From Oscillatoriophycideae cyanobacterium NC_groundwater_1537_Pr4_S-0.65um_50_18 (GTDB taxonomy: Bacteria; Cyanobacteriota; Cyanobacteriia; Elainellales; Elainellaceae), in NCBI GenBank assembly GCA_016208305.1, contig JACQYI010000056.1:1-64000 (forward strand): a stretch of 64,000 nucleotides of DNA, read 5' to 3'. The notes beneath the pieces were generated by a model. That model was not told the DNA's origin. It searched no databases and saw only the letters and a program-made list of their open reading frames with translations. How positions within the stretch are numbered: position 1 is the first letter of the stretch; every line of letters begins with the position of its first letter. Position numbers and translations under genes: made by a program. This document shows, piece by piece, positions 8,920 through 49,333 of this stretch.

Positions 8920-10044
8920 TTAGCTTAGCCGCTGCTTTAGCCAAAAAGCCAGCAAAGGCATAGTGATGCGATAACCAAACTTAGCGCCATAAACCAGCCC
9001 TTTTTGCTCCAAACTACTGAGTGCGCCTTGTAAACCACCCCCTCGCGAGAGCTGATGTTTTTGGATATAGTCTCTGGCATGGGGTTTGTCGGTCGGGTCA
9101 AGCGCCAAGCTCTCTAAAACGCGCACCTGACTAGGAGGCAGCAGCAGAATCAGCGACTCAAACGTAATGGATAAATCTTCAGTGAGCGATAGGGCACTTT
9201 GGTAGACATCATCCGCATAAATGAGACTCTCTGATCCAGATACTGTTTGCAAACCTATGCCTTTCTGGTTTGCCTTATGGTTCACCGCCGCAGCATGATC
9301 GAGCCATACTCGCCGCGCCAAAGCGATCGCATCTCCCAAATGCCCCTGAACATAGCTCAAAAACCGTTCCAGAGCCTGATGGTCAAACCGCATTCCTTGA
9401 GAGGCCATCGTGCTAACCAGCCAAGCTCTAAGATCGTCTTCATCTAGCGGAGCCAAAGTAATCAGCTTTAGATTGCCCTGCATCCAAGGTTCAGCAATCG
9501 TTGAAATTAAGGCATAGCTTACTCGGCTTTGGCGTTGAATTTCCTGTCGCAAGTAGTTTTCCCATTCCCCTGTGCGATCCCAAGAGCGGATGTGAGGAAA
9601 ATTTTGAAACACAATCACCACACGGCAGTCTAGCCGCTCTGCCATGATCTGGGGCAGCGACAGCAACGTCTGAAATAGCGTCCAGCTTTGAACCGATATT
9701 GCTTGCCAGACCAATCGTGCTCTGGGCGGCGACTGCTCTAAACCGATCGCATGCTCTTGGCTCCAGTCCTGTATCAAAGCCATCTCCTGAGCGTCAGCAA
9801 AGGCTTCAGTCACCCCATCTGCCAACAGCCGCAAGAAGCGATCGGCATTAGTCGTTCTCAAAAAATCAATTTCCACAATCCTGGCTCCCACCTGCCGAGC
9901 CGCAGCCCGAATCAGCGATCGCCGCCCAATGCCTGGAGCGCCCACGACCAGCAAATCACCATCTTGCGCCAAAATCTGGTTGATCTGTTGCAGCTCATGC
10001 TGATGGCTCACCCAATGCTGAGCAAAAAAGGGGTTATTCGACAT
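8920..10044 (-). CDS. AAA/STAND-like ATPase-fold protein with degenerate P-loop
   Basis: A 374-residue protein with the shape of archaeal-type AAA/STAND ATPases: an N-terminal nucleotide-binding domain, a helical lid (residues around 205-260) and a C-terminal winged-helix-like region (LLPPSQVRVLESLAL to RITMPLLAFWLKQRL). The P-loop position reads GAPGIGRRSLI (35-45): the invariant Lys and the following Thr/Ser are both Arg. The Walker B strand reads RVVIVFQNF, with Gln where an acidic residue is expected. ATP hydrolysis is therefore doubtful, and it may act as a nucleotide-independent scaffold or regulator. It is a single-gene unit divergent from the P-type ATPase 177 bases away. Confidence 0.65.
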   Translation of the reverse strand: MSNNPFFAQHWVSHQHELQQINQILAQDGDLLVVGAPGIGRRSLIRAAARQVGARIVEIDFLRTTNADRFLRLLADGVTEAFADAQEMALIQDWSQEHAIGLEQSPPRARLVWQAISVQSWTLFQTLLSLPQIMAERLDCRVVIVFQNFPHIRSWDRTGEWENYLRQEIQRQSRVSYALISTIAEPWMQGNLKLITLAPLDEDDLRAWLVSTMASQGMRFDHQALERFLSYVQGHLGDAIALARRVWLDHAAAVNHKANQKGIGLQTVSGSESLIYADDVYQSALSLTEDLSITFESLILLLPPSQVRVLESLALDPTDKPHARDYIQKHQLSRGGGLQGALSSLEQKGLVYGAKFGYRITMPLLAFWLKQRLS

Positions 10045-10220
10045 CCGTTTGTGCCGAGAATATGAATGTCACAAAGCATCTCTATAGTTTGACATCGATA
10101 GTCTTAGCACTATTTAATAGTGCTATACAAGTTTTAACAGCGCTACATAAAAGTCCTGCATTCAAGTCCTGCATTCAAAGTATTGTATCCCTTAGTAACT
10201 GCCCAAAAGCTTGATCCCCT

Positions 10221-13013
10221 ATGTCGCCCAAACCTTCAACCGACGCTTCTCTCTCCACTCCCATAGCTTGGCACAGCCAAACAGCCGAGCAAGCAACGGA
10301 TTTGCTGAACAGCGATCGCGCCACTGGTTTAACAGAGAGCCAAGTTGCTGAACGCTTAGAAAAATATGGCTCCAATGAGCTGATTGAAATGGGGGGACGA
10401 TCGCCCCTAGAGATCCTGTGGGATCAGTTCAAAAACATCATGCTGTTGATGTTGATTGCAGTCGCCATCATCTCTGCAATTTTAGACATTCGGGAAGCGA
10501 TGGCTCTGGGGCAGTTTATTTTTCCCAAAGATGCAGTTGCCATCTTCGTCATCGTCTTACTCAACGGTATTTTGGGCTATGCCCAGGAAAGCGGTGCTGA
10601 AAAAGCGCTAGCCGCACTCAAAGATCTGGCGACTTCTAAAGTACGCGTCATTCGTAACGACAAAACCCTCGAAGTTGATTCTAAAGATCTGGTGCCCGGA
10701 GATGTCATGTTGCTAGAGGCAGGCGTCAAAGTCTCTGCCGATGGTCGTCTTCTCGATGCGTCCAATCTTCAAATCAGAGAATCGGCCTTGACGGGGGAAT
10801 CTCAGGCCGTTAACAAGCAAACCAACGCCCAGCTTTCAGAAAATGCCTCCCTGGGCGATCGCATTAACCTCGTATTTTCGGGCACCGAAGTGGTTCAAGG
10901 GCGAGGAACCGTTTTGGTAACCGGTACGGGCATGCAGACTGAGTTAGGCAAAATTGCCACTGCACTCCAGGAAGTAGAGACAGAGCCAACTCCGCTGCAA
11001 AAGCGCATGACACAGTTGGGTAACGTCTTGGTTACAGGCTCGCTAATTTTGGTGGCGTTAGTCATCGTCGGGGGTACCATCTTCCGCCCCAGCCTGTTTG
11101 AGGAATTGGTCAAAGTTTCTCTCAGCATGGCTGTAGCAGTCGTTCCAGAAGGTCTGCCTGCCGTCATTACAGTCACGTTGGCGCTGGGCACCCAGCGCAT
11201 GGTCAAGCGCAACGCGCTCATCCGCAAGTTGCCTGCTGTAGAAACCCTGGGTTCCGTCACCACGATTTGTTCTGATAAAACAGGCACGCTGACGCAAAAC
11301 AAAATGGTGGTACAGGTGACCAACACGGCCAGCGGTTCTACCTTCGTCACAGGCCAAGGCTATGCACCCACGGGTGAATTTCAAGTCGCAGGACAGGCGA
11401 TCGCCCCGCACACTCAGCCCGAACTTCAAGCGTTGCTGAGGGCTTGCGTTCTCTGCAACGATGCCATCTTGCAAAAGGAAAATGGCGAATGGGTTATTTT
11501 GGGTGATCCGACCGAGGGTGCTCTTTTGTCTGCTGCGGGCAAAGCCAGCCTGCGTAAAGACGAAGAGGAATATCGATTCCCTCGCGTTGCCGAGTTTCCC
11601 TTCTCCTCCGAGCGCAAGCGGATGAGCGTGATCGTCAAAAGCTCTGAGTCTGCTTACTGCATGTTTACCAAAGGTTCACCAGAACTCACGCTAGAGCGCT
11701 GTGTTTACGTGCAGATAGGCGATCGCCTAGAGGTGCTATCCGAAGCCCAGCGATCGCACATTCTAGAGCAAAACAACCAGTTGGCCAGCCGAGGTTTGCG
11801 CGTGCTAGGGTTTGCCAGCAAAGCCCTGACAGAGCTACCCCCCGAAGCTTCTGAAGAAGTCTCTGAAAACGACTTGGTTTGGCTAGGATTGGTGGGAATG
11901 CTAGATGCCCCCCGTCCTGAAGTGCGGGACGCTGTGGCGAAGTGCCGTACTGCCGGAATTCGTGCCGTGATGATCACGGGCGATCACCAGTTGACCGCCC
12001 AAGCGATCGCCGCAGATTTAGGCATCGCTCAAACAGGCGAAGCTTCGCTCACCGGACAGCAGCTAGAAAACTTGAGCGATCGAGAGCTAGAAAAGGCCGT
12101 TGGAGAAGTCAATGTCTACGCTCGCGTATCCCCTGAGCATAAGCTGCGCATTGTCCGGGCGCTCCAGAAACAGGGGCATGTCGTAGCCATGACCGGAGAC
12201 GGCGTCAACGACGCCCCAGCCTTGAAGCAGGCTGACATTGGCGTAGCGATGGGCATCACGGGCACAGATGTCAGCAAAGAAGCCAGCGACATGGTGCTGC
12301 TAGACGATAACTTCTCTACGATCGTTGCGGCTGTCGAAGAAGGTCGCGTGGTCTACACCAACATTCGGCGCTTCATCAAATACATTCTAGGCAGCAACAT
12401 TGGTGAAGTCTTGACGATCGCCGCTGCTCCCCTTTTGGGGCTGGGAGGCGTACCCCTCACCCCGCTGCAAATTTTATGGATGAACTTAGTCACAGATGGT
12501 CTTCCTGCTCTGGCATTGGCCGTAGAGCCAGGACGACCCAGCATTATGCAACAGCCGCCTAAAGATCCCAAAGAGAGCATCTTTGCCCAAGGTCTAGGCT
12601 CCTACATGATTCGCATCGGGATTGTCCTAGCCGTTGTCACCATCGCCATGATGGTATGGGCCTATGACTATACCGAGCAGGTACAGGGCAACGGACTCGA
12701 TCGCGAGCGCTGGCAGACTATGGTCTTCACAACCCTGTGTCTGGCACAAATGGGTCATGCCCTAGCGGTGCGATCGAGCAACCGTCTCACCATTGAGGTC
12801 AATCCCTTCTCTAATCCCTACGTGCTTGGGTCAGTGGTGGTCACGAGTATTCTGCAAATCTTGCTGATTTACGTTGAGCCTCTGCGCAACTTCTTCAACA
12901 CCCATTTTTTGAGTGCTACAGAACTATTGATCTGCATTGGGTTTAGCTCTTTGATCTTTATTTGGATTGAGCTAGAGAAACTGTTTATCCGATCGTTTTT
13001 GAGCAAGCGGTAG
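10221..13013 (+). CDS. P-type (P2A) calcium-transporting ATPase
   Basis: A 930-residue pump of the SERCA/PacL type. Domains in order: a cation-ATPase N-domain (20-85), two helices (72-118), the actuator domain with TGES (191-194), helices with the ion-site motif PEGLPA (309-314), the phosphorylation site SDKTGTLT with Asp352, a nucleotide-binding domain with FTKGSPE, the hinge [10 protein letters not shown] and [17 protein letters not shown], then six C-terminal helices. NIGEVLTI in M5 and [12 protein letters not shown] in M6 carry the residues that coordinate Ca2+ in SERCA, which favours calcium over Na+ or H+. It probably exports Ca2+ across the plasma membrane. The gene is monocistronic and convergent with the aldolase gene. 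Confidence 0.92.
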
Positions 13014-41980: not shown

Positions 41981-42015
41981 AAAAAACGCGTGGCGAAGAG
42001 TGCCACGCGTTTTTT
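41981..42015. terminator. Bidirectional rho-independent terminator
   Basis: AAAAAACGCGTGGC, a 7-base loop and GCCACGCGTTTTTT give a 9-bp GC-rich stem extended by A/T pairing, with T tracts on both strands. It ends the secreted-protein gene and can also serve the minus-strand TPR gene. Confidence 0.88.
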
Positions 42016-43594: not shown

Positions 43595-45061
43595 TTAGAC
43601 TTTATGCATCTCGTCAAATCTGAGGTGCGAAGCCTCAATATCCCGCTCCATTTCTTCAATCACACCCGGAGCTTTCATCCGCAAATACATAAACCAGCCT
43701 GCCCCGATCGCCAGGTACGCCAGGAAGAAGTAGGGGAAAATATTATAGGGCGCGGGTGGAACAGGAAAGAGGCTATTTTCGCCAGGGATGCCAATACTGC
43801 TAATGACCGGAATCATCATAAACAGGACACCCAACGCAGAAAACAAGATATGTCTCAGCCGCAGCCGACCCTCACGCGCCAAGTAGCAGGGGGCAGCGAT
43901 CGAGATCAGAATGTAGGCAACGAGAAACCCGTAGGTGGCGATCGTGCCAAAGTAGGCAAAGCTATCCAATACGGCCACACCCGACAGCAGCGTTCCCCCC
44001 GTGATAGCCAAAATCAGCAATGCCGAGAGAGTGACAGCCACATGGGGCGTTTCGTTGCGGCCATGTGCCCGACCAATCCGCCGATGCAAAACCCCATGCC
44101 GCCCCATCGTAAACAAAATCCTTGAGCAGGCATTGATACAGGCAATGGCACAGGCAAACATGCTAATAGCAGCACAAAGCGAAATCAGAATGCCAAAGAA
44201 TCCAACTCCCATCGCTTCTGCCAGATCACTCAGCGGTGCAGTACTTTGGCCTAGCGTAATGGGCATGCCGCTAAAGCCCAGCACTTCAACATAGGACATC
44301 ACGATAAAGAACAATCCAGACGCCACTGTGCTAAGAATCACGGCTCTGGGGATGGTGCGCAGCGGTGCTTTGGCTTCCTCTCCCAACGTTGTAGCGCTCT
44401 CGAACCCTACATAGCTCAAGACACCCAACACCAATCCGTACATAATGCCGCTGGGTTGTGCCCCTTGCAACGTGAGCTGTGCCGGGTCAATCACGGTACC
44501 TTTTTTGAAGACGACGATCGCAGCCAGTAGCAAAATCAAGCCAACCGAGACTAGCTCTAGGATCAGCATGAGAGCGGCTGAAAGCTGCACATCTTTATAG
44601 GCAAAATACCAAGCCAGACCCAGACCCGCCACCAGCAAAAACAAAGGAGCGAGGGGAATGCCCAATGGCGCGAAGATCGCTTGCACAAAGTTGATAAAGC
44701 CGCACTGCACCGCCATTGCAGTAAACAAATACGCCAAAATTAGCGACCAGCCTGTGATTACGCCTGCGGTCGCGCCCAGCCCTTTGGTAATGTAAGCGTA
44801 GAGCGATCCGGGCGAAGCCGAGCGACGCGCAAACTGATTGATATTTGTCCCTACGAAGACAAGACCAATCGTGGCAATTAGATAGGTAAACCAGGTTCCT
44901 GTTCCAGAACTGGCAAACACCAAAGCAATCGTCAGGGCAGGAGCGGCCGTAGGGGCAATATTGGCGATCGACTGTGCCAACACTTCTGAGAATGGCAAAC
45001 ATTCGGGTCGCAAACCCGAACGAGATAAAATAGAAACCTCTGATCTAGTTTTAGTATCCAT
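43595..45061 (-). CDS. APC-superfamily amino acid/amine permease
   Basis: A 488-residue transporter with about 12 membrane helices. The N-terminal IANIAPTAAPALTIALVFASSGTGTWFTYLIA and FARRSASPGSLYAYITKGLG carry the unwound TM1 and the SPGSLY motif of the APC fold, and GFESATTLGEEAKAPLRTIPRAV is the TM6-loop signature. The gene lies 95 bases downstream of the copper amine oxidase gene on the same strand, so it is likely co-transcribed and may import the amine that the oxidase consumes. The substrate itself is inferred from context only. Confidence 0.85.
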   Translation of the reverse strand: MDTKTRSEVSILSRSGLRPECLPFSEVLAQSIANIAPTAAPALTIALVFASSGTGTWFTYLIATIGLVFVGTNINQFARRSASPGSLYAYITKGLGATAGVITGWSLILAYLFTAMAVQCGFINFVQAIFAPLGIPLAPLFLLVAGLGLAWYFAYKDVQLSAALMLILELVSVGLILLLAAIVVFKKGTVIDPAQLTLQGAQPSGIMYGLVLGVLSYVGFESATTLGEEAKAPLRTIPRAVILSTVASGLFFIVMSYVEVLGFSGMPITLGQSTAPLSDLAEAMGVGFFGILISLCAAISMFACAIACINACSRILFTMGRHGVLHRRIGRAHGRNETPHVAVTLSALLILAITGGTLLSGVAVLDSFAYFGTIATYGFLVAYILISIAAPCYLAREGRLRLRHILFSALGVLFMMIPVISSIGIPGENSLFPVPPAPYNIFPYFFLAYLAIGAGWFMYLRMKAPGVIEEMERDIEASHLRFDEMHKV

Positions 45062-45156
45062 AGAAGTTGCAAGGTAGACTGCGGTGAATCAAATGAAAGA
45101 TTCCACTCAAAGCACCAAAGCACAGAGAGTGGAATCTTGCGGACACTCAGCTAAAC

Positions 45157-47100
45157 CTAATGACACTTGTGCTTAGCCACTGATGGCGGTACATCATTAG
45201 CGGGGTTTAGATCAAAGAAATTGACAGGCTTGAGCATAAAGCCGATGTATGCGGTTGGCATTACAGGCCAATCTTCAGCGCGAGGAACATGGGTGTGCGC
45301 CATCGTGTACCACAGCACGATATCGGTGTCCTCAACGGATTCATTAGCAGCCGTCCATTGCGGCAAACCTGCCCCCCCTGAATGTTGGTTAGGATACTCT
45401 CCAGCCGGATAGCGCTCGGCTGCATCGTAGGGAGTTACCCACAGGTGTTTCGTCATGTATCCCGCCCGCTTCATCACGCTAGAATTCGGCAGGGCAAACG
45501 GCAACCCATTCTCGCCGTGAACCAGCTTGTAGCTGACGGGATAACCCATGCGGTTGGTCTTAGCAGGATTCACGACTTTCCAGTAGCGCGCCTTGAAGGG
45601 ATCAATCAATCGCTGAGCTTCCTGCTCAGTTTTGAGCAATGTTGACTTAGCATAAAAGGCGTTTCCGTAGGGATTCTCTTCTGGAGGTGCAGGTTCAGTA
45701 TCGACCTCGTATACCGAGTTATTCATCCCATCTACCGACATATCCAAACGCACGCTGAAGATATGTTGATGATTTTGAGCATAGAGCTGAGGTGCAATCA
45801 GCGTTCCATATTTGGGTACAACATCAGGTGCAACAGCGGTCGTGTTCATCATACCCGTCAGCTTTGCCTCGTACTGAATGGACCCATCCTGATAGAAGTA
45901 CCAGAAAAAGCCATATTCGTAGTTACCGACAGTCGCAATAAACGAAACAACCAAACGCCGCGATCGCCGCACTTCAGTCTGATCGGTGCGCCAGTCCATA
46001 TGTTTCCAGAGAATGCCATAGTCTTCTTCATGCAGACAAACGGCATTTTTGATGATGACAGGTTCCCCTTTGCTGTTGGACAGCGTGGCATCAAAATACT
46101 GAATGACACCCAAACAGTCGCAGCCCAGCGTCAAAGAGTTTGCCAGCATGCCCACGCCATACTCGCCCACATCAAAGGCATTTTTGCGGTAGCACTGCAC
46201 CTGGGGATCGCCATAGGGCACCGTCATTTCTGCCAGCGATGCCCGATATAAAATGGGACGCACTTGGCCTTGATCTTCGTAGCCCACCGTATGGAGAACT
46301 AACCCTTCACGCGGCGTAAAGCCAATCCGCATTCTCCACTTTTGCCAACGCACTTCCTGCCCTTGCACCGTGAAACTTGGCCCTTCAGGCTGCACAATTT
46401 CTAGCGGCTTCAAATCGGTGCGGAAGTTTTTGACATGTTCCGTCGTGTAGTTACAGTCTTCCGGCGGAATGGGCACAACCCCGTGATCTTCAACGCGAAG
46501 CACCTGCATGGCGTTAAGGTCTACGATCGCCAGTACTCCCTCAACGGGGTGAGCATAAAGGTTATCGGTCGGGTGGCTGCGCACCCAGCACAAGGTTCGC
46601 ACCAAACGTCGTCCTGTATCCCCTTCGGGTTCGTCACCGTAGTAACCTGCCGACCAAGGATCGATCGCCACCAGGCTCATATCTGTGATGCCACGCTTCT
46701 GGAGTGCCGCCTGAAAATCAGGATCGGCTCGAACCGCTGCTTCGCACTCAAAAAACTCATCAAGAGCGATCGCGGGCTGCACGCCTGGAATGAGCTTCCA
46801 GGAGGTGACGGCATTAGCCGTGAGGGAGACAATAGCCTCATAGGTGCCGCGACTAGCGTTATCAAGCAACACCATTTCCACTTCACGGTCAAAAGGCTGT
46901 CCCGATTCAAAGCTCAATACTGTGCCCTTGGGAGGCTCATGTAGCGAGACTGAAATAAACCGAACTTGCTCACCTAAATTCTGCTGTGTTTTAACAAGGC
47001 TAACCGCTGCCTCAATCTCGGCAGCGCTAAGGGGGTCTAGGGGATGTTTGGGTTCACTTTCTGGTTTCGACAATACAGGCTTTTCCAAACTCGCAGTCAT
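45157..47100 (-). CDS. Copper-containing primary-amine oxidase
   Basis: A 647-residue topaquinone (TPQ) enzyme that converts primary amines to aldehydes with release of NH3 and H2O2. The TPQ precursor is Tyr394 in VGNYEYG, the catalytic base is Asp310 in FDVGEYGVG, and the copper ligands are His444 and His446 (NHQHIF) with His604 (AHTHVPR). Length and spacing match the bacterial histamine/phenethylamine oxidase type. No signal peptide is present, so it is probably cytoplasmic. It is followed by an APC permease and divergent from a FadR-type regulator, which suggests amine use as a nitrogen source under that regulator's control. Confidence 0.94.
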   Translation of the reverse strand: MTASLEKPVLSKPESEPKHPLDPLSAAEIEAAVSLVKTQQNLGEQVRFISVSLHEPPKGTVLSFESGQPFDREVEMVLLDNASRGTYEAIVSLTANAVTSWKLIPGVQPAIALDEFFECEAAVRADPDFQAALQKRGITDMSLVAIDPWSAGYYGDEPEGDTGRRLVRTLCWVRSHPTDNLYAHPVEGVLAIVDLNAMQVLRVEDHGVVPIPPEDCNYTTEHVKNFRTDLKPLEIVQPEGPSFTVQGQEVRWQKWRMRIGFTPREGLVLHTVGYEDQGQVRPILYRASLAEMTVPYGDPQVQCYRKNAFDVGEYGVGMLANSLTLGCDCLGVIQYFDATLSNSKGEPVIIKNAVCLHEEDYGILWKHMDWRTDQTEVRRSRRLVVSFIATVGNYEYGFFWYFYQDGSIQYEAKLTGMMNTTAVAPDVVPKYGTLIAPQLYAQNHQHIFSVRLDMSVDGMNNSVYEVDTEPAPPEENPYGNAFYAKSTLLKTEQEAQRLIDPFKARYWKVVNPAKTNRMGYPVSYKLVHGENGLPFALPNSSVMKRAGYMTKHLWVTPYDAAERYPAGEYPNQHSGGAGLPQWTAANESVEDTDIVLWYTMAHTHVPRAEDWPVMPTAYIGFMLKPVNFFDLNPANDVPPSVAKHKCH

Positions 47101-47453
47101 AGTTTCTCCAGGAACTTGGCAGATAACAGAATGAGTTTACCTAAACCCGCCCACACAAAAACCGATCGCCATAACCCGCTACAGATAAGGGCGATCGCCA
47201 TTCGTAATGTGAGCCGAGATAGGACAAAATTTAACGCGATGCAAAATAAAGGTACAATTCTGTACCTTTAAAGTAAATGATTTACGGTCACAAGTTCGTA
47301 GCCAGAATAACAATTGCTCAGCGGTTAGGCAACAGAGGAAACAGATTTCCCTCTCATCAGGTTAATAATCTCAGGATTGGAGATAATAAGCTGCTAGTAG
47401 TATCTTCTTCTGTAACAACCCCCTAGTCAGTTGGCGCAAAAGTAATAAGTCCT
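47101..47453. promoter_or_regulatory. Divergent promoter region of the amine cluster
   Basis: The 353 bases between the amine oxidase and regulator start codons carry the operator-like palindrome at 47247-47270 and several HIP1-type GCGATCGC sites near 47162-47200. No coding frame is convincing. Confidence 0.6.
47247..47270. promoter_or_regulatory. Candidate FadR/GntR operator
   Basis: TAAAGGTACA-ATTC-TGTACCTTTA is a perfect 10-bp inverted repeat with a 4-base spacer, centred 147 bases before the oxidase start and 195 before the regulator start. FadR-group GntR proteins bind short palindromes with a GGT..ACC core. The position in a divergent intergenic region next to its regulator makes this the natural autoregulatory and operon operator. 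Confidence 0.65.
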
Positions 47454-48221
47454 ATGACCGCTGGGTATTTTTCATTTCCTGCAATTCCCAAGCGTCCGAT
47501 GCTCACACCCGCAGAGGCGCTGTTAAGAGGGCTTAAACCGACCACAAATGCCTTTGAAGTGACCATTGAGCGGTTAGGCTCAGTCGTGCGCATGGGGCTA
47601 TATGAGCCGGGTGCTCGATTGCCTTCAGAGAGAGAAATTGCCGAAATTATGGGTATCAGCCGCACGACTGTGCGCGAAGCGATTCGCGTGTTGTCCGAGC
47701 AAGGCATTCTCACCGTCAAGCGAGGCAGGGCGGGCGGAACGTTTGTCTCTGAAACGCTCATGCCGCCCAACGTGATGCAATTTCGCCGTCAGTTTCATGA
47801 TGCAGGGCGATCGCTATCAGATATCCTCGATCATCGCCTGATTGTAGAAGCCGGAATTGCAGAGCTAGCTGCCCAACGCGCCACGATTGAACACACCGAC
47901 GAGCTGCAGGATCTCATTCATGCAATGCGCCATGTCGAAGATGACTTTACGGCTTATCGCAAACTGGATACAAGATTTCATTTGGTGATTGCTCAAGCTA
48001 CAAACAATAGCCAACTGCAAGCCGTAATTGCTGACATCCATGCTGACTTATCTGAGTTGGCACTTGTTGTTCCCTATAGCAAAGCAGCATTAACGTACTC
48101 TACTAGTAAGCACCAAAAAATTGTTGACGCAATTAAAGCCCGTCGTGCATGTCTGGCGCGCCAACTCATGCAAGAGCATGTAAAAGCTTCTAATAGTTTT
48201 CTCACCGGACTTCTGGGCTAA
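47454..48221 (+). CDS. GntR-family regulator, FadR/FCD subgroup
   Basis: A 255-residue regulator. The N-terminal winged helix is clear: GARLPSEREIAEIMGISRTTVREAIRVLSEQGILTVKRGRAGGTFVSE. The C-terminal helical FCD domain follows, with DHRLIVEAGIAELAAQRAT, the DTRFHLVIAQATNN block with a metal-binding His, and a later HQKIVDAIKARRACLARQLMQEHV with a second His. FCD proteins sense small carboxylates or amine-derived acids. Divergence from the oxidase-permease pair and the palindrome between them point to local control, probably repression relieved by a substrate or product. Confidence 0.9.
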   Translation: MTAGYFSFPAIPKRPMLTPAEALLRGLKPTTNAFEVTIERLGSVVRMGLYEPGARLPSEREIAEIMGISRTTVREAIRVLSEQGILTVKRGRAGGTFVSETLMPPNVMQFRRQFHDAGRSLSDILDHRLIVEAGIAELAAQRATIEHTDELQDLIHAMRHVEDDFTAYRKLDTRFHLVIAQATNNSQLQAVIADIHADLSELALVVPYSKAALTYSTSKHQKIVDAIKARRACLARQLMQEHVKASNSFLTGLLG

Positions 48222-49209: not shown

Positions 49210-49260
49210 CTAAAAGCTGGATTCCAGATGCGCTTCGCACCTCTGGAATCCAGCTTTTAG
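49210..49260. repeat. Long hairpin, copy B of the two-copy family
   Basis: CTAAAAGCTGGATTCCAGA at the left pairs with TCTGGAATCCAGCTTTTAG at the right, 19-bp arms around ATGCGCTTCGCACC. It is related to the hairpin at 403-453 in stem ends and interior. Located just downstream of the PhnA-like gene. Confidence 0.7.
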
Positions 49261-49294
49261 TTTTTGTGGCGCGCAGAGCGCGCCACAAAAACTA
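49258..49294. terminator. Near-continuous 17-bp hairpin, probable bidirectional terminator
   Basis: TAGTTTTTGTGGCGCGC (49258-49274) pairs exactly with 49278-49294 around a 3-base loop. It abuts the previous hairpin, sharing TAG, and sits between convergent genes. The A/T-rich outer stem provides a T-rich tail in either direction. Confidence 0.75.
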
Positions 49295-49333
49295 ATTTGC
49301 GATCAGGCTGGCTAGAGCAGAATAAAAACTGGC

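Follow-up and report, generated by a model that had tools for sequence, protein, structure and literature searches.

The window analysed here (the whole 64,000 nt stretch, positions 1–64,000 of contig JACQYI010000056.1, assembly GCA_016208305.1) comes from the cyanobacterium NC_groundwater_1537_Pr4_S-0.65um_50_18 of the Elainellaceae, and contains a compact locus in which the genes for a copper amine oxidase (CAO) and an APC-family permease lie divergent from the gene for a GntR-family regulator. A first-pass annotation of the same DNA had described these three genes and a perfect palindrome between them, and both our open reading frames (ORFs) and the Pfam domains agree with its placement of the genes, all of which are intact. 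The palindrome was likewise found exactly where it had been reported. In line with a cyanobacterial origin, ORFs for a Rieske protein and cytochrome f were recognized by eye in the window, and many relatives of the CAO carry cyanobacterial names. The features of the locus, in coordinates of the window, are as follows.

43595–45061, minus strand: APC-family permease of 488 aa, encoded second in the CAO operon (ORF and Pfam)
45157–47100, minus strand: copper/topaquinone (TPQ) primary-amine oxidase, the CAO, 647 aa (ORF, Pfam, NCBIfam and alignment to PDB entries)
47247–47270, no strand assigned: putative operator palindrome of the GntR regulator, 24 bp, TAAAGGTACA-ATTC-TGTACCTTTA, core GGT-N10-ACC (comparative)
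47270–47275, minus strand: candidate −10 box of the CAO-APC operon, TACTTT (TAN3T), which touches the palindrome
47298–47311, minus strand: candidate NtcA-type site GTTATTCTGGCTAC, which departs from GTAN8TAC at one position and lies 22 nt upstream of the −10 box
47454–48221, plus strand: divergent GntR-family regulator of the FCD type (FadR subfamily), 255 aa (ORF and Pfam)

The palindrome is more than a product of chance: when the 353-bp intergenic region was Markov-shuffled 3000 times, only 0.27 % of the shuffles contained an inverted repeat with arms of at least 10 bases and a gap of at most 8. It is not the only one, though, as seven repeats of this kind occur in the window, where 30 shuffles had 0.67 on average; other perfect inverted repeats, at 49257–49295 and 41981–42015, have arms of 18 and 14 bases, respectively, and are perhaps terminators. 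A search for further copies, which the first-pass annotation had proposed, returned none at two or fewer mismatches in the 6.94-Mb genome. At three or fewer mismatches, the pattern AAAGGTACANNNNTGTACCTTT occurred in the whole genome at this locus (no mismatches) and in two other places (three mismatches each), compared with one place for a reversed-pattern control. The loose pattern WWGGTN10ACCWW matched the same genome 77 times per strand versus 86 times for its reversed control, and as such gave no signal of a wider regulon. A sigma-70 scan of the intergenic region found one match versus 0.6 in shuffles. LexA was set aside as a reader of the palindrome: its cyanobacterial box presumably has a 4-nt spacing, whilst the GTAC words here are separated, by eye, by 6 nt.

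Of 388 genomes searched within the class, 12, counting that of the window, hold an orthologue of the regulator (E-value ≤ 1e-35), and ten of the 11 others are 51–61 % identical to the window regulator, with the split gene of genome G133 reaching 45 and 63 % by piece. No CAO adjoins the regulator in any of these 11 genomes within the neighbourhoods fetched, whereas ethanolamine-type genes do so in eight of them. In five (G032, G235, G218, G224 and G325) the regulator is transcribed divergently from an operon led by an ethanolamine-type permease and an aldehyde dehydrogenase, followed in four of the five by a glutamine synthetase (GS)-like enzyme and a short-chain dehydrogenase (the G325 contig ends earlier), and including in three (G032, G235 and G218) a C26 hydrolase. 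In G005 the regulator precedes a permease, a GS-like enzyme and an oxoprolinase/hydantoinase-like protein. The count of eight is completed by G011 and G027, where it precedes an aldehyde dehydrogenase, with a GS-like gene next in the former and the contig end in the latter. The stretches fetched around the regulators of G246, G028 and G133 held no operon of the permease, aldehyde dehydrogenase and GS-like type. The permeases of G032 and G005, which were those covered by the NCBIfam run, exceed the ethanolamine-permease cut-off (TIGR00908) with 395 and 411 bits versus 381.75, and the remaining permeases are 83–85 % identical to that of G032. CAOs at E ≤ 1e-100 are encoded elsewhere in the five genomes of the window's own family and were found in none of the six others. 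Looking from the CAO side, no regulator orthologue was detected by tblastn (E ≤ 1e-5) in 80 CAO loci, several of whose contigs end near the CAO gene. The regulator gene seems, from its sequence, to decay repeatedly: in G011 (locus L117, ∼9062–10400) it is interrupted by a stretch containing an ORF without a Pfam match, and in G133 (L119) and G028 (L118) it is in pieces.

All seven loci in which an intact regulator stands beside a permease or CAO operon (the window, G032, G005, G235, G218, G224 and G325) have, between the regulator and the operon, a palindrome built on GGT-N10-ACC in which 8 or more of the 12 pairs are symmetric; the core alone has a chance of 2.6–5.7 % per intergenic region. 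A second copy in G005 (L114, 7461–7484) falls within the longest PhyH frame as called, but probably sits between the PhyH and GATase genes if their starts match those of homologues, judging from lengths; this suggests that the regulator there may control these two genes as well. Across the eight sites, A-x-GGT...ACC-x-T is common to every row on both strands, and the GT-N10-AC spacing is kept in all. A leave-one-out sequence model (R1), built from seven sites on both strands with the window site excluded, was run on the 12 genomes. Within the genome of the window, where 150 of 1404 first-look candidates were scored, the sole match at E ≤ 10 was 47247–47270, in both orientations (13.7 bits, E 0.61), and on the window with filters off the next-best place reached 6.8 bits. 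At default filters R1 matched neither any of 45 CAO loci lacking the regulator nor any of 15 loci that surround paralogous permeases, GS-like genes and CAOs. Thus, given that six other genomes have this class of site next to their regulator orthologue, and that R1 has a single match in the genome of the window, the first-pass suggestion that the palindrome is the putative operator of the neighbouring GntR regulator is supported by comparison. The predicted operator appears to travel with the regulator whilst the enzymes change. Separately, an operator-like sequence, GGTCTAAGCCTATACC, lies at about position 1500 of L205 and L206, ∼60 bp before the gene of an unknown protein, and is conserved between the two genomes concerned (G027 and G011), which belong to one genus.

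Immediately upstream of the operator, reading towards the CAO gene, is the layout GTTATTCTGGCTAC (GTT-N8-TAC), N22, TACTTT. This resembles the canonical NtcA-activated (class II) promoter as given in an excerpt of PMC3898017 (GTN10AC, 22 nt, TAN3T), from which it differs in one core position and in having its −10 box touch a GntR operator. The same excerpt puts NtcA-activated transcription starts at a distance of 41.5 nt, measured from the site centre, a rule by which the start is predicted at ∼47263, inside the operator, as would be expected for a repressor that blocks initiation. In shuffles, an NtcA-type layout anywhere upstream of the operator had P 0.0069, and one whose −10 box came no more than 6 nt from the operator P 0.0004, in a test that was post hoc, having been devised after the G005 and window matches were seen. 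The order of elements is the same in G005, where the operator is immediately preceded by a strict NtcA site, a 22-nt spacing and TACGTT.

The predicted NtcA-type signature also reaches beyond this locus. In a set of 146 genomes, the six permeases nearest to that of the window (64–69 % identity), one of them in the same genome, are encoded beside a GS-like gene, and all six of these APC-GS clusters have a relaxed NtcA promoter with 22-nt spacing within 400 bp, strict in four versus 0.006 expected; at other spacings from 16 to 28 there was one match in total. Amongst cyanobacterial CAO genes with 300 bp upstream, eight of 42 have a relaxed NtcA promoter at 22 nt (three of them strict, versus 0.03 expected) and between none and two at each other spacing, whilst for other CAO genes the counts were 0 of 36 at 22 nt and again none to two elsewhere. 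These counts include some close kin (the CAOs of L014 and L017 are 80 % identical), such that not all loci are independent. Amine catabolism as a source of nitrogen, as first proposed for this locus, is plausible, and gains support from the NtcA-type promoters on related clusters.

Taken singly, the CAO, the permease and the regulator are each ordinary. The CAO matches Cu_amine_oxid (567 bits) together with the N2 and N3 domains of Pfam, and scores 992.6 bits against NCBIfam PRK11504 (cut-off 651), making it a full-length member of the bacterial primary-amine oxidases. The earlier statement that every catalytic and copper residue is present was borne out by alignment, with Tyr394 (in GNYEYG), Asp310, His444, His446, His604 and Tyr296 at the corresponding positions; from the literature on the Arthrobacter globiformis phenylethylamine oxidase (AGAO) we take Tyr394 to be the TPQ precursor, Asp310 the base and the three histidines the copper ligands. 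As such, the enzyme is predicted to oxidize primary amines with release of H2O2. Its first 45 residues include no strongly hydrophobic stretch in a rough check (best 12-residue Kyte–Doolittle mean 1.28), in keeping with the reported lack of a signal peptide. In the full-length ranking of PDB entries phenylethylamine oxidases come first and yeast peroxisomal enzymes next, whilst the yeast methylamine oxidase is the top match of a 65-residue segment that spans the active-site Asp. Both AGAO and HPAO-1, the peroxisomal methylamine oxidase of Hansenula/Pichia, are full-length homologues with the TPQ and copper residues and the N2-N3-catalytic domains; unlike them, the window CAO is encoded in a bacterial operon with its own regulator. 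At position 308, presumably the gate, it carries Ala, as does the yeast enzyme, where AGAO has Tyr. Ala occupies this position in 76 of 80 related CAO loci, and hints at small aliphatic amines as substrates, without being proof of them.

The permease matches Pfam AA_permease, placing it in the APC superfamily. The regulator exceeds the Pfam cut-offs for both GntR (59.3 bits; N-terminal winged helix-turn-helix) and FCD (81.3 bits; C-terminal), and its residues Asp172, His176, His196 and His220, which resemble what we take to be the FCD metal site, are invariant in four aligned sequences. The same architecture characterizes NanR, LldR and FadR, and solved relatives include FadR, NanR and 2di3, the last of which is named LldR in an excerpt of PMC4494728. 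The window-class sites fit the general pattern NyGTNxACNy set out in that excerpt, but with 10 nt between GT and AC rather than the 3 nt typical of the FadR subfamily, to which exceptions are known; the spacing does not define the protein family.

Compared by description, the genes beside the regulator orthologues resemble the glnA4/epuRI cluster of Streptomyces coelicolor as portrayed in an excerpt of PMC6529630, with a permease, an aldehyde dehydrogenase, a GS-like enzyme, a short-chain dehydrogenase and a glutamine-amidotransferase-like hydrolase; the window has a CAO and a different permease instead. In the route proposed there, a dehydrogenase and an aldehyde dehydrogenase oxidize gamma-glutamylethanolamide before a final hydrolysis, and the dehydrogenase, aldehyde dehydrogenase and hydrolase genes of the relatives fit it. 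EpuRI is described there as a negative regulator of glnA4, which is read in the opposite direction. By ORFs and Pfam, there is no GS-like gene amongst the three genes of the window cluster. When the ethanolamine permease and the GS-like enzyme of the relatives are compared with its genome, the best-scoring matches are just 23 and 31 % identical, respectively, so that close orthologues of both are lacking in the assembly (98.46 % complete). The earlier remark that no dehydrogenase is visible holds for the neighbourhood but not for the genome, in which an aldehyde dehydrogenase query found five matches, the best of them 41 % identical and one inside a 1009-aa frame.

From these comparisons we consider it rather probable, albeit with appreciable doubt, that the CAO and permease genes form an amine-nitrogen scavenging operon under two-input control by NtcA and the GntR regulator, with a small, ethanolamine-like primary amine as the likeliest substrate. 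During nitrogen shortage, NtcA would activate the operon from 47298–47311, whilst the GntR protein would occupy the palindrome over the transcription start and block it until an amine-derived ligand is present, probably repressing its own gene as well. The permease would import the amine, from which a cytosolic CAO would release ammonia, an aldehyde and H2O2, and the aldehyde would pass to an aldehyde dehydrogenase encoded elsewhere in the genome. In the relatives, the same regulator–operator module would control import and, by gene content, gamma-glutamylation of ethanolamine, which is why ethanolamine or a similar small primary amine appears the likeliest substrate. What the two routes would share is the amine itself, which puts ethanolamine first amongst the candidates for both ligand and substrate. 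The genes, the link between operator and regulator, and the NtcA-type signature rest on comparison, whilst repression (not activation), NtcA action at the promoter, the inducer, the substrate and the fate of the aldehyde are what we infer; repression, for example, is assumed from position and from analogy with EpuRI.

A number of observations weigh against this scheme. The window permease passes no NCBIfam cut-off, gives no TIGR00908 match at E ≤ 0.001, and is only ∼24–27 % identical to the ethanolamine permeases of the relatives, belonging to another branch; its substrate may therefore differ from ethanolamine. Ligands of FadR-subfamily regulators, according to the excerpt of PMC4494728, include carboxylic acids. 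In the regulator tree the window protein falls outside the other ten (fork 91/95), a placement compatible with recruitment in either direction. As to the operator, R1 also found seven matches off the regulator loci of other genomes (11.7–14.7 bits; three in G218 and one each in G005, G011, G027 and G028, with those of G011 and G027 forming the conserved pair at L205 and L206), one of which, G218:C162:6233–6252 (L209), inside a 153-aa ORF as called, exceeds the window site with 14.7 bits. A score like that of the window is thus not unique to true sites, and E 0.61 is weak by itself; the weight rests on position, given that the only match in the genome falls at the predicted place. Furthermore, five of the 12 regulator-bearing genomes (G011, G028, G133, G027 and G246) have no strict site, and whilst G011 and G028 have regulator fragments and G133 a split gene, the regulators of G027 and G246 look intact; in G027 and G011 degenerate versions of the operator precede the aldehyde dehydrogenase. 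Finally, the NtcA-type site of the window has its core mismatch (GTT), and within 400 bp no strict NtcA site precedes the operons of G032, G218, G224, G235 and G325, so that the layout with NtcA and GntR inputs is not universal.

Other explanations can be given for the same locus. The switch might be as described but the chemistry different, with an aromatic amine or polyamine as the substrate and a regulator that senses the carboxylate product rather than ethanolamine. The closest full-length PDB relative of the CAO is a phenylethylamine oxidase, the permease is unlike ethanolamine permeases, and residues resembling the presumed FCD metal site are kept in the four aligned regulators, whose subfamily has carboxylic acids amongst its ligands (excerpt of PMC4494728). 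Set against this are the Ala at the gate, shared with the yeast methylamine oxidase and prevalent in related loci where phenylethylamine oxidase has Tyr, and the ethanolamine-type genes beside most regulator orthologues; overall, we judge such a chemistry unlikely, though worth serious consideration. The palindrome itself could alternatively be an NtcA site (GTA-N8-TAC: GTACAATTCTGTAC) with an incidental GntR neighbour, since a perfect GTAN8TAC core lies within it and within both G005 sites, and GTN10AC, the highly conserved part of NtcA sites according to the excerpt of PMC3898017, is contained in every GGT-N10-ACC site. The GTAN8TAC core is, however, absent from five of the eight operator sites; TAN3T lies 3 and 18 nt from the palindrome core towards the CAO gene, and 3 and 17 nt towards the regulator gene, rather than 22; and R1 drew a blank at CAO and paralogous loci without an adjacent regulator. 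Moreover, the strict NtcA-type sites before CAO genes (n=3) show 4–6 of 12 symmetric pairs versus 10 in the window palindrome, even if two of them also read GGTA, and a separate NtcA-type site with the 22-nt spacing is present. With the core in three of eight sites, no TAN3T at 22 nt and the R1 negatives, NtcA was set aside as the reader of the palindrome, an explanation that we regard as improbable.

We further considered that the palindrome might form a hairpin, acting as a terminator or attenuator in the leader RNA of the CAO operon, as a 10-pair stem is followed by TTTT on the minus strand (one found versus 0.3 in shuffles). The stem has just three G-C pairs, and the sites in other genomes retain GGT and ACC but not the T-tract, for which reasons the hairpin was set aside. 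On the minus strand, all that lies upstream is an ORF of 115 aa, antisense to the regulator, and thus nothing likely to need a terminator. We regard this reading as highly improbable.

An extension of the two-input scheme, which we put forward tentatively and rather doubt, is that a single regulator–operator module has been passed between two chemically unrelated routes by which cyanobacteria obtain nitrogen from ethanolamine-like amines, namely gamma-glutamylation in the relatives and copper-enzyme oxidation in the window, and has here been fused to an NtcA promoter such that nitrogen shortage and substrate are both required. If so, the CAO would be an oxidase of ethanolamine or of a small amino-alcohol, and the resulting glycolaldehyde would lead to glycolate and the photorespiratory route.

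Additional loci with related genes were seen during the comparison. Five of the six permease relatives described above also have a GATase and a pair of PhyH-type dioxygenases beside them, whilst in G002, the sixth, the contig ends early. This conserved GATase-PhyH-PhyH-APC-GS-like cluster (L129 in the genome of the window, at G000:C49, as well as L187, L188, L190 and L191) has a strict or relaxed NtcA-type promoter preceding its permease gene and, by gene content, looks like a gamma-glutamyl amine route with two PhyH-type dioxygenases. The genome of the window also encodes a second CAO (G000:C4:468884–470779, L128), 64 % identical to the first, in which GEH replaces the GEY motif near the active site, and to which CAOs of G005, G011 and G032 are 77–79 % identical. 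No permease or regulator orthologue was present in the 18 kb fetched around it, and neither this gene nor its relatives in those three genomes have a relaxed NtcA promoter in 400 bp. Amongst the 80 CAO loci, CAO-APC pairs with a close relative of the window permease occur in L014 and L017, and as pieces in L002; a GS-CAO-APC arrangement is found in G055, and more distant APC-type genes (24–30 %) lie near the CAO in L005, L019, L048, L054, L059 and L075.

The first-pass account of this locus was accurate as far as it went, but incomplete, as it did not include the NtcA-type element, the ethanolamine/gamma-glutamyl partners of the regulator, the second CAO or the aldehyde dehydrogenase matches elsewhere. 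Its view that amine use is little described in cyanobacteria seems correct for the open-licence part of PubMed Central, where, by title, we found nothing on a cyanobacterial CAO among the matches listed, and nothing on regulation of cyanobacterial amine oxidases by NtcA or on ethanolamine use by cyanobacteria. The same part of the archive gave nothing on FadR-subfamily GntR operators in a cyanobacterium and, for amines as sole nitrogen source of cyanobacteria via an amine oxidase, only work on an Arthrobacter enzyme. What appears new is the combination, predicted from sequence, of an NtcA-type promoter with an adjacent regulator–operator module that is common to an oxidative route and to one that, judged by gene content, is a glutamylation. 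With the operator defined, the candidate promoter placed exactly and a group of relatives to hand, the regulator ligand and the link to NtcA can be tested together. If the proposal is true, dissolved amines would be an NtcA-controlled source of nitrogen in a number of cyanobacteria, and the locus would provide an example of a repressor and operator kept together whilst the enzymes that they control are exchanged.

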